From contig PZKD01000059.1 in NCBI GenBank assembly GCA_003034855.1, positions 1 to 64,000 on the forward strand: a DNA stretch of 64,000 nucleotides. The letters run 5' to 3'. The stretch comes from an archaeon SCG-AAA382B04 (lineage in GTDB: Archaea > Halobacteriota > Methanonatronarchaeia > Methanonatronarchaeales > Methanonatronarchaeaceae). Made by a program: the position numbers and the translations under genes. Shown here piece after piece: positions 27,932 through 39,303 of the stretch; position 1 is the stretch's first letter; each line of letters begins with the position of its first letter. Below the pieces are notes generated by a model. It made no database searches. It saw nothing but the letters and a program-made list of their open reading frames with translations, and was not told the origin of the DNA.

Positions 27932-28162
27932 ATGACTGAAAGAGTTGTAACATCCATAAATATAGACGAACCTACACTTAGAAAAGCCAAATCCTTGGGC
28001 CTAAACATTAGTAAAGTAACAGAAAACGCATTAAAAATCGCTGTCTCCAATTTAGAGAATACATACAAAGATATAGATAAAGAAAAACACTTTAAGAACA
28101 GAGTGCGGGGGAGGGGATTCGAACCCCTGGACCCCTACGGGACAGCGCCCTCAAGGCCCTAA
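27932..28162 (+). pseudogene. Orphan int(N): RHH N-half of a second SSV-type integrase
   Basis: A 76-residue frame from ATG 27932 (ribosome binding site AGGATAAAG). It has the same ribbon-helix-helix start as the int(N) at 38998: VVTSINIDEPTLRKAKSLGL then NISKVTENALKIAVSNLEN. It runs into the tRNA-Leu repeat, but in a different frame (RGRGFEPLDPYGTAPSRP) from the neighbouring int(C), and stops just past it. It therefore belonged to another element using the same tRNA. An upstream ATG at 27863 would add 23 unsupported residues. It is a leftover of an older or tandem integration; it could still be expressed as a small DNA-binding protein. Confidence 0.65.
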
Positions 28163-29003
28163 AACAGCTAGAATCGAAAATAAAGTTTTTGAATTTAGTG
28201 AGAGACACATTAATGATTTTTTGGATCGGTTAAGAGCGGCTGACCGTTCAGAGATGCGAATAAATGCACTCAAAAGAACAATCACAAAATACGCAAAACA
28301 CGTAAACTTCAAAGCCAGCTTAAATAAGACAATCGATTACATAAACCAGCGACGCCAAGAAGTTAGTAACAGAACACTCGCCGACAATATACAAATGATA
28401 AAACAATTCCTAAACGAATACAACGTAAACTGGACTGAAAAAATCAATAAACCAAACGTTGGACGCAAAAGGCCAAAAAGAATTGACAAAAAAGACGTTA
28501 ATGGATTAATTGATCAATTAGAGGATGTAGATATTGATTATAAGTATTTTTATCGAGCCAAAACCGCAGTAGTATTATCCGCCGTATCAGGAATGCGTCC
28601 CTGGGAAATATATCGCCTACAATGGAACGAATTAAACGTGGACGAAAGAATAGTTGAGTTACCTGCTGAAAAAACGAAAACCAAACACGAGAGAATCGTC
28701 GTATTTAATGAGGAAGCACAAAACCACTTAACTAAACTAATGGATTTGTTTGAGGAGCAACCATTTAGCACCAAAACCATCTATTGCCTAACAAAAAAGA
28801 TGAAAAATAAACCGGATGTTAAGTTAAAGCATTGTCGTAAATATTTTAGCCAACAATGGGACCGAGAAGGCCTACCAACATCAATAAAAGAGATGTTGTT
28901 AGGTCATTTCGGAAACGTAGACTTAAGAAACTATGATCGACAAAGTGCCGAGGATCTGAAGCAAATATACGATAGAGCAGAGTTCAAACTAAACCATAAT
29001 TAA
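28155..29003 (+). CDS. int(C): catalytic half of SSV-type integrase
   Basis: The frame is open from the tRNA repeat (GGGDSNPWTPTGQRPQ read through the repeat) and continues GPKTARIENKVFEFSERHIN to the end, about 280 residues after the junction. The core-binding domain is at about 30-110. The catalytic residues are R in SGMRPWEIYRL, K in PAEKTKTKHE, the HCRKYF box, LLGHFGNVD and the Tyr in LRNYDR, all present. No start codon lies in the left part of the element; the first in-frame option is TTG at 28221. It may thus be silent until excision rejoins it with int(N) at 38998. It integrates and probably excises the element at tRNA-Leu. Confidence 0.88.
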   Translation, partial: GPKTARIENKVFEFSERHINDFLDRLRAADRSEMRINALKRTITKYAKHVNFKASLNKTIDYINQRRQEVSNRTLADNIQMIKQFLNEYNVNWTEKINKPNVGRKRPKRIDKKDVNGLIDQLEDVDIDYKYFYRAKTAVVLSAVSGMRPWEIYRLQWNELNVDERIVELPAEKTKTKHERIVVFNEEAQNHLTKLMDLFEEQPFSTKTIYCLTKKMKNKPDVKLKHCRKYFSQQWDREGLPTSIKEMLLGHFGNVDLRNYDRQSAEDLKQIYDRAEFKLNHN

Positions 29004-29073
29004 ACTAATTACTTTCACTTCACTATTGATAAGTTTTTTTATAATATAAAATAAATTATATTAAATAAATAAT

Positions 29074-29373
29074 ATGATAAACGTGATAAATATGATAACT
29101 CCATTAATAAATAACTTAATTGGAATTATAATCCAATCAATAAAATACATAATTGGGTTCTTATTAGGGGCACCAATAAAATTCCTAAAAACTGTTTTGA
29201 ACAAAGGTGAGGGAATATTTGTTTTAATATTTGCTTTTATACATCTAATTCAAGGAGAAATAGCAAAAGCAATACTTGATGTGTCTCTTCCACCACTAAC
29301 ACCAGCTAGTATAATAACAACAGTAATCTTAGGAATAATAGCATTAGGAATAAAATACGGAATAAATGTTTAA
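29074..29373 (+). CDS. Small hydrophobic protein, possible structural protein
   Basis: A 99-residue protein with hydrophobic stretches at residues 6-33 and 47-60 and a C-terminal helix 76-97 (ASIITTVILGIIALGIKYGI). The loops are short and basic. A small hydrophobic protein next to an SSV-type integrase recalls the capsid proteins of spindle-shaped archaeal viruses, but many plasmid-borne membrane proteins look the same. I see no family signature. It is 70 bp downstream of int(C) on the same strand with a TATA-rich start region (ATAATATAAAATAAATTATAT). Confidence 0.5.
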   Translation: MINVINMITPLINNLIGIIIQSIKYIIGFLLGAPIKFLKTVLNKGEGIFVLIFAFIHLIQGEIAKAILDVSLPPLTPASIITTVILGIIALGIKYGINV

Positions 29374-29428
29374 ATGCATGATAGAGCAGAGTTAAAGGTT
29401 TTGGATTAATTGAACCCTTTTTTATTAA

Positions 29429-38112: not shown

Positions 38113-38245
38113 CCCATACAAATATGGTTTTTTAAGTATAAAGGTTTTAGGTTTTCAATTTCAATCTAAAAAAGAACCCATGAACCAAACTAACTAACTT
38201 CAATAAAAATCATCGAACACTACATAGATCACCAAAAAAAAATTA

Positions 38246-38428
38246 TCAATCCTTTAGCTGTGGTTTTATCCTCAAATCACCACTATCATCTTCCTCAATC
38301 CGAAGAACATCCCGTTTACTCAATCCCTTCTCCTTGATCCAATTCTCCGGAATCGCAACCAAAAAATAATTGACATCATCTCTAGGCCTCTGCAATTTCC
38401 TCAAACCCAAAATCTTACGATTAGGCAT
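38246..38428 (-). CDS. AbrB/MazE-like swapped-hairpin regulator
   Basis: A 60-residue protein. LVAIPENWIKEKGLSKRDVL and RIEEDDSGDLRIKP form the beta-hairpin/helix/beta pattern of the SpoVT-AbrB fold, here preceded by RKLQRPRDDVNYF. Such proteins bind DNA as dimers and control plasmid genes or act as antitoxins. An excellent ribosome binding site (GGGAGGTGATTTAATATG) precedes the start. It lies upstream of the GC-rich region and the helicase gene on the same strand, so it is well placed to control replication. No toxin gene follows. Confidence 0.7.
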   Translation of the reverse strand: MPNRKILGLRKLQRPRDDVNYFLVAIPENWIKEKGLSKRDVLRIEEDDSGDLRIKPQLKD

Positions 38429-38976
38429 ATTAAATCACCTCCCATGTCCTAAACACATAGATTTTTATTTCCATGCAAATCCCATCCTTAATTTGTTTTT
38501 TAATTTATTTAAATGTTTTATTCCCAATCTAAATATTTACTAAACCCATTATAACTAAATAATAGTTAATGATTGATCTAATTGATCTAAAATTAAATTA
38601 AATAAATGTTTAATTTAGATTAAAAGAATATATTCTTTTTATGTTACATTTATTGATACATAAATGCTGAACTAAATTTTGGAGACACAAAATTGAAAAA
38701 TGGTTGTGGAGAATACAGGATTTTTTTCAAATCCAAAACAATCCATATTTCAATTCAAACCCACCCAATAACCAAAATATGAAAAATTTAAATAAACCAA
38801 ATGGTTTTCTATTTCTAAATATAAAAACTTCAAATATTCCAAATATGGATTTTATAATCGATTATTATAGAAAAACAATCTATAAAAACCTTTTATTTAC
38901 AAATAACCTATAAATAATCAATCATAAGCCAAAATAAGCCAAATGATGCATAATAACGCAATTAGATTTATATTCT
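38429..38976. other. AT-rich region, possible replication origin
   Basis: 550 bp of very AT-rich DNA with short direct repeats (ATTGATCTAA twice near 38573-38592) and palindromic ATTTAGATTA-type sequence. A 69-codon frame at 38704-38913 is Asn-rich and not convincing. Its composition suits a DNA-unwinding region. It separates the regulator from int(N). Confidence 0.35.
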
Positions 38977-38997
38977 ATGATAAAAGAGCTTAGAGAT

Positions 38998-39303
38998 ATG
39001 TCAGATAAAAAGAGATTAACCATAAGAATAAACAAGGAAGTAGCTGAAAAAGCTAAACAAAACGGCTTAAACATATCAAAAACATGCGAAAAAGCTCTCA
39101 AAGCTATTTCAAATGATTTAGAAAACAAATTTAATCGTTTAGGCGTTTTATGCGGGGGAGGGGATTCGAACCCCTGGACCCCTACGGGACAGCGCCCTCA
39201 ACGCTGCGCCTTTGGCCTAGCTCGGCAACCCCCGCAGAATAAATCAAGTTTCTTGGGAAGGCTGAGAGGAAATTACCAAGGACTTATTAGATTCTTCCTT
39301 TAA
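38998..39303 (+). CDS. int(N): RHH-domain half of SSV-type integrase
   Basis: Starting at ATG 38998, MSDKKRLTIRINKEVAEKAK and NGLNISKTCEKALKAI form a ribbon-helix-helix domain. The frame then passes into the tRNA-Leu repeat as CGGGDSNPWTPTGQRPQ. In the excised circle the frame continues directly into int(C) at 28155, giving one integrase of about 350 residues. In the integrated state it instead reads through antisense tRNA sequence to a stop at 39301-39303. The RHH half can thus be made alone, possibly as a repressor, while the catalytic half is disconnected. The start at 38977 is less likely. Confidence 0.85.
   Translation: MSDKKRLTIRINKEVAEKAKQNGLNISKTCEKALKAISNDLENKFNRLGVLCGGGDSNPWTPTGQRPQRCAFGLARQPPQNKSSFLGRLRGNYQGLIRFFL
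39151..39235 (-). tRNA. tRNA-Leu(GAG)
   Basis: On the minus strand: acceptor GCGGGGG (39235-39229) with CCCCCGC and discriminator A (39151). The D arm is in GCCGAGCTAGGCCAAAGGC. The anticodon stem CAGCG/CGCTG encloses loop TTGAGGG (anticodon GAG, reads CTC/CTT). A long variable arm (TCCCGTAGGGGTCC region) and T arm AGGGGTTCGAATCCCCT follow. No intron. Its 3' 51 bases are supplied by the integrated element, which restores the gene; the original 3' part is at 28104-28154. Confidence 0.95.

Follow-up and report, generated by a model that had tools for sequence, protein, structure and literature searches.

When an integrative element carries its attachment core inside its own integrase gene, integration splits that gene, and the locus described here raises the question of what the N-terminal half is and what it does once it has been parted from the catalytic half. 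The window, the whole stretch of 64 kb that was analysed, comes from a salt-loving, methane-making archaeon of the Methanonatronarchaeaceae (assembly of 1.42 Mb in 132 contigs). A repeat search over this window recovered the 51-bp repeat that an earlier note on this DNA had placed within an integrase frame: it is exact and direct, with copies at 28104-28154 and 39151-39201 on the forward strand, there is no third copy in the window, and the runner-up match to this core reaches only 27/51. The integration target is tRNA-Leu(GAG), located by ARAGORN at 39150-39236 on the reverse strand, and the core corresponds to its 3' part. The right copy lies within this tRNA gene, which is itself left intact, and the left copy, on the attL side, remains as the flanking direct repeat. 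From the core-to-core distance, the predicted excised circle measures 11,047 bp (28155-39201), and this segment, element A, is by its sequence features an integrative element of about 11 kb with predicted SSV-type (type I, “suicidal”) integration, in which the core lies within the gene, the two halves are in frame, the tRNA target is intact and a catalytic domain is present.

Excision in silico, joining 38977-39201 to 28155-29003, yields one open frame of 357 aa (350 aa if counted from Met 38998), which contains GGGDSNPWTPTGQRPQ and leads from an RHH head through a tRNA-derived linker to a tyrosine recombinase. It is thus the single RHH-linker-catalytic protein that had been proposed for this locus, and Pfam recognises both of its ends above the cut-offs, with CcdA (RHH) at 26.6 bits against 22.4 (residues 4-36) and Phage_integrase (PF00589) at 43.2 bits against 27.1 (residues 176-321). 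In the integrated form, int(N) (38998-39201, forward strand) comprises the RHH head and the core-encoded linker; it retains its own start, as the earlier note had stated, at Met 38998 or the alternative 38977, and its frame continues through the tRNA to 39303. The other half, int(C) (28155-29003, forward strand; PF00589), holds the core-binding and catalytic parts with an R..K..HxxR..H..Y motif found by eye, and the accompanying claim that it loses its start proved correct, as no ATG or GTG start stands in front of it and its first in-frame start codon is a TTG at 28221. The AlphaFold model of int(C) alone had a pLDDT of 37 and was discarded. Upstream of int(N), a weak candidate promoter/operator (38908-38943, forward strand), given as motif positions without statistical support, consists of the TATA-like CTATAAATA followed by two tandem copies of ATAAGCCAAA, and this pair (38924-38943) constitutes a weak candidate operator motif. 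A sigma-70 promoter scan returned values close to the shuffled level, the sigma-70 model being unsuited to archaea, and no convincing arm repeats were seen flanking the cores. The 9-mer TAAGCCAAA, common to the upstream regions of head A and of head C, a further head in the same genome, would by a rough estimate match by chance about 1 time in 3 and is a lead only.

Related integrases extend these observations beyond a junction joined in silico. The only other genome of the same order that was searched, Candidatus Methanohalarchaeum thermophilum HMET1, matches the integrase, and the search of genome contigs for relatives gave one locus, in HMET1, with nothing useful among viral contigs, plasmids and phages. 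Among the relatives, pairs of int(N) and int(C) with a common core occur within the same genome. Locus L032 is a single uninterrupted gene that encodes head, tRNA-like linker and catalytic domain, and L155 is a second uninterrupted RHH-linker-integrase gene, scoring 152.8 bits with PF16795 and 22.1 bits with CcdA, slightly below the cut-off of 22.4. Locus L179 consists of two tandem copies of an element at tRNA-Lys, 100% identical over 8,766 bp with a period of 8,724 bp, so that a single contig carries int(C) (85-912), an undivided integrase gene where the two copies meet (8578-9636) and int(N) (17302-17574). This tandem is either chromosomal or an assembly of a circle and an integrated copy, and the joined junction exists as sequence either way. 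The SSV-type splitting named in the earlier note is backed by the uninterrupted L032 and L155 and by the split and intact forms on L179, and the relatives settle the predicted RHH-integrase fusion as real for the family. Tandem integration as in L179:85-17574 would reverse the “suicide”.

The identity of the head was approached through profiles and models. Heads A and B, the latter being a second RHH frame at the left core, score 26.6 and 26.4 bits with CcdA against the curated cut-off of 22.4, and a head profile compared with the PDB gives weak matches to CcdA, the Rv0298 antitoxin and CopG. A structure model of the head monomer shows an extended N-terminus followed by helices 13-21 and 28-48 at a moderate pLDDT of 73, and a Foldseek search of PDB folds with the 51-aa head returned no match, so that the RHH assignment rests on the profiles, which identify the head of element A as a predicted CcdA-type RHH domain. 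A CcdA antitoxin with an adjacent toxin is not what is found here: heads A and B continue into the core of the tRNA, and none of the neighbouring genes was recognised as toxin-like.

Such heads are widespread. The Pfam CcdA model finds matches in 18 of 19 related genomes, and among 30 loci retrieved with it, 13 have an antisense tRNA 3' end no more than 60 nt away, the frame being open in 12; the remaining loci, sorted by eye, include about 12 that enter a sense-read tRNA core, one intact gene and four other RHH genes. Several of the sense-type heads have a core in common with an int(C) of their own genome. With a profile derived from the heads, 41 of 60 loci in a related family (40 in an open frame, 13 tRNA isotypes) show an antisense tRNA 3' end within 60 nt, a count that is partly circular because the profile was built from such heads, and most of the other heads in this set enter a sense tRNA core, the sense type again being classified by eye. 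The predicted RHH fusion is not peculiar to element A, and its layout is common in related archaea, where the main family of relatives with RHH heads is, we presume, the Archaeoglobaceae. In these archaea, the label “CcdA antitoxin” may often stand for an integrase head left at a tRNA gene, which makes it an annotation trap. At L108-L167, many short Pfam-CcdA-antitoxin genes are integrase heads that end in tRNA genes. A search of PMC8371274, PMC6972569, PMC5495485 and PMC4158269 found no mention of an RHH head in suicidal integrases; priority for it is uncertain, because the literature search did not extend to the 2020 IntpT26-2 work.

The RHH heads are joined to recombinases of different kinds. 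In the catalytic part of element A, Pfam gives no PF16795 match at E up to 1, and the tree groups element A with the L032-type integrases, which resemble archaeal XerA, separately from the PF16795 clade (100/100), to which the relatives L155 and L169 belong by their PF16795 matches. Because element A lacks this match and is set apart in the tree, RHH heads are found on at least three catalytic groups: the PF16795 group (L155, L169, L174, L178), the XerA-like group (element A, L032 and further members) and a third group (L171, L172), in which the member tested has no Pfam match. Within a single genome, the partner heads of L178 and L171 show 67% identity, whereas the two catalytic domains come from different groups and give no alignment (score -36), the head L140 being paired with L171 by position and a partly mismatched core; between L171 and L172, the catalytic part is 64% identical and the head 31%. 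These identities suggest that recombinase families unrelated to one another have swapped RHH heads at the attachment core, which on balance we consider probable. Degenerate older heads at L169:11190-11400 and at L171 (on the minus strand, with the tRNA about 8.2 kb away) abut, in frame, a newer core and int(C), and the same geometry is seen in the window at 27932-29003, where head B is out of frame. Since head and catalytic part meet at the core, further rounds of integration at one tRNA set an old head before a new catalytic half.

Head B (27932-28162, forward strand) is one of three RHH proteins that the earlier note had grouped by similar layout (27932, 38998 and 39244), a grouping that holds in part: 38998 is an int(N) and 27932 a fossil int(N) at the core, but 27932 is unfused and 39244 has another layout. 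Head B reads the core in a different frame (GFEPLDPYG) with a stop at 28162, and is therefore not fused to the int(C) of element A that adjoins it. With an int(N) on tRNA-Gln in HMET1, whose own decayed int(C) is some 6 kb distant, head B shares 64% identity; no int(C) of the element to which head B belonged was found in the window. Geometry and homology suggest that head B abutted the 3' end of tRNA-Leu before element A integrated, and that it was left behind by an older element B, since lost, at the same tRNA. The frame at 39244-39420 was rejected as an int(N) by strand and position, as it lies on the opposite strand, upstream of the tRNA, and stops short; it is a stand-alone CcdA-type RHH gene immediately upstream of tRNA-Leu, on the strand of the tRNA, and its best relative is in HMET1 (55-57% identity). 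Elsewhere in the genome of the window, L007:12718-12987 is an int(N) on tRNA-Leu(TAA), 89% identical to that of element A and located beside ABC transporter genes, with no int(C) found beside it, and at L008, the core of a different tRNA holds an int(C) that belongs to a related integrase with 46% identity. In two species, decayed int(N)-like pieces (L017:9586-10148 and L007:9425-9650) are followed by a common non-tRNA stretch, GGGATTACCACGCCAATTTAC(C/T)AGTAAA, which is possibly a transposon scar; at L017, an RHH resembling 39244 is spliced to an A-type head tail and a piece of int(C).

What, then, does the released head do? The model that we hold with considerable confidence is that of a suicidal RHH-integrase which splits at tRNA-Leu, whose head is mainly a part of the integrase and is open to swapping. 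The circle would encode one protein, made up of the RHH head, a linker read from the tRNA core and a XerA-like recombinase, and integration into tRNA-Leu(GAG) would split its gene into the int(N) and the start-less int(C) that are seen at the tRNA side and at the far end, respectively. The head would most likely serve the integrase itself as a dimerisation and accessory DNA-binding domain, and its released form would be mostly a by-product; an ordinary multimerisation/DNA-binding part of the integrase would also explain the pattern seen across the family. For the int(N) part of the SSV1 and SSV2 Int, a role in multimerisation is known (PMC8371274). An older element at tRNA-Leu would have left the fossil head at 27932, and integration repeated at one tRNA, the junctions of which are visible, may thereby have permitted heads to be exchanged.

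The earlier note had instead suggested that integration could turn the recombinase into a repressor. In such a switch, the head, made from its own promoter, would act on the element, on the integrase promoter or on incoming relatives. Open frames are indeed kept in heads A, B, C (L007) and D', intact heads persist without a partner core within 20 kb (L168, L175, L176), although some of these “orphans” may belong to longer elements because the partner search spanned 20 kb, and between heads B and D' dN (0.23) is lower than dS (0.87); for the tRNA-Glu heads, dN/dS was left unused, synonymous sites being mostly saturated and row L123 misaligned. There are also precedents, since the integrase operon of SSV1 is repressed by the RHH protein F55 (PMC8371274, PMC9608457) and two integrated elements transcribe only int(N) (PMC8371274). 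However, selection on the active integrase accounts for both the dN/dS values and the conservation of the heads, released heads are sometimes broken (L018 in HMET1 by a stop, L007:9425 by stops and decay, L137 by a stop before the tRNA), and the search around int(N) and the cores established no operator. The switch was not supported and appears unlikely, the exchange of heads being better supported. We are similarly doubtful of a wider proposal, namely that the core acts as a domain-shuffling joint and parked heads stay in use, marking or silencing occupied sites, so that integration converts an enzyme gene into a regulator gene.

It is quite improbable that the released head works as an excision or directionality factor, or as a dominant-negative partner for integrases that later elements bring to the site. 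Successive integrations at a single tRNA recur (in the window and at L169, L171 and L179), and integrase parts are reported to complement each other in trans in pTN3/TKV4 (PMC8371274), but in DNA-free solution the SSV2 Int(N) and Int(C) show no interaction (PMC8371274), and divergence is frequent among the heads that different elements have left at a single tRNA. Finally, that the RHH frame is a separate gene, such as an antitoxin, which falls in frame with the recombinase by chance, as the Pfam label and the in silico junction of the window's genome would allow, has next to no likelihood and is for the family already refuted by the uninterrupted genes L032 and L155, the intact junction at L179 and dozens of heads that are open into tRNA cores.

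With the head regarded primarily as a part of the integrase, element A can be set beside known systems. The SSV, pTN3 and pT26-2 families are alike in carrying the core within the gene, in targeting a tRNA, in the int(N)/int(C) split and in translating the att site (PMC8371274); element A differs from them by its recognisable RHH head and by belonging to PF00589 without a PF16795 match, whereas these families are PF16795 integrases, for which a single origin has been suggested (PMC8371274). ArcVen-P3 of Archaeoglobus veneficus likewise has an SSV-like integrase split at a tRNA, with an int(N) that was initially unannotated, and RHH proteins within the element (PMC4158269); these are, however, separate CopG-like regulators, and its int(N) is not itself described as RHH, unlike the predicted RHH head of element A. 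F55 of SSV1 also links an RHH protein to integrase control in an SSV-type element (PMC9608457, PMC8371274), but it is a separate gene and a demonstrated repressor, while the head of element A is a piece of the integrase. In MrpR of phage SPbeta, a tyrosine recombinase fold is tied to repression as well; there, in contrast to element A, the whole fold evolved into a repressor without splitting by integration (PMC10516654). Closest to the proposed exchange of heads is the model of Badel et al., in which homologous recombination generates chimeric suicidal integrases and int(N) and int(C) likewise have separate histories and enter new combinations (PMC8371274); here, successive integrations at one tRNA would create the combinations at the att core, and different catalytic families bear similar heads. 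Serial integration would offer suicidal integrases a simple, site-specific route to regain a full gene and to swap parts, and it bears on both their persistence and their change of specificity, an open question in the field. The N-terminal half of these widespread self-splitting archaeal integrases, to which a 2021 review ascribes multimerisation and site recognition (PMC8371274), gains a domain identity and therefore a testable function.

In the remainder of element A, a D5-type primase/helicase (36371-37798, reverse strand) matches DUF5906, D5_N and Pox_D5 in Pfam and a primase in PHROG. The cargo includes, by annotation matches, a DNA methyltransferase (31017-32321) beside a gene resembling a type II restriction enzyme (32380-33168), the two occupying 31017-33168 on the reverse strand, as well as an AbiEi-like protein (33310-33729) and a transglutaminase-like membrane protein. 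Outside element A, a large gene at 19929-23927 is of the type IIG restriction enzyme-methyltransferase or DrmMI-like kind. The window also holds two more tyrosine recombinases (9574-10758 and 18025-19365), one with a C-terminal zinc ribbon and the other with a coiled-coil tail, and the zinc-ribbon recombinase adjoins an intron-like tRNA (Rfam tRNA match at 9219-9319).
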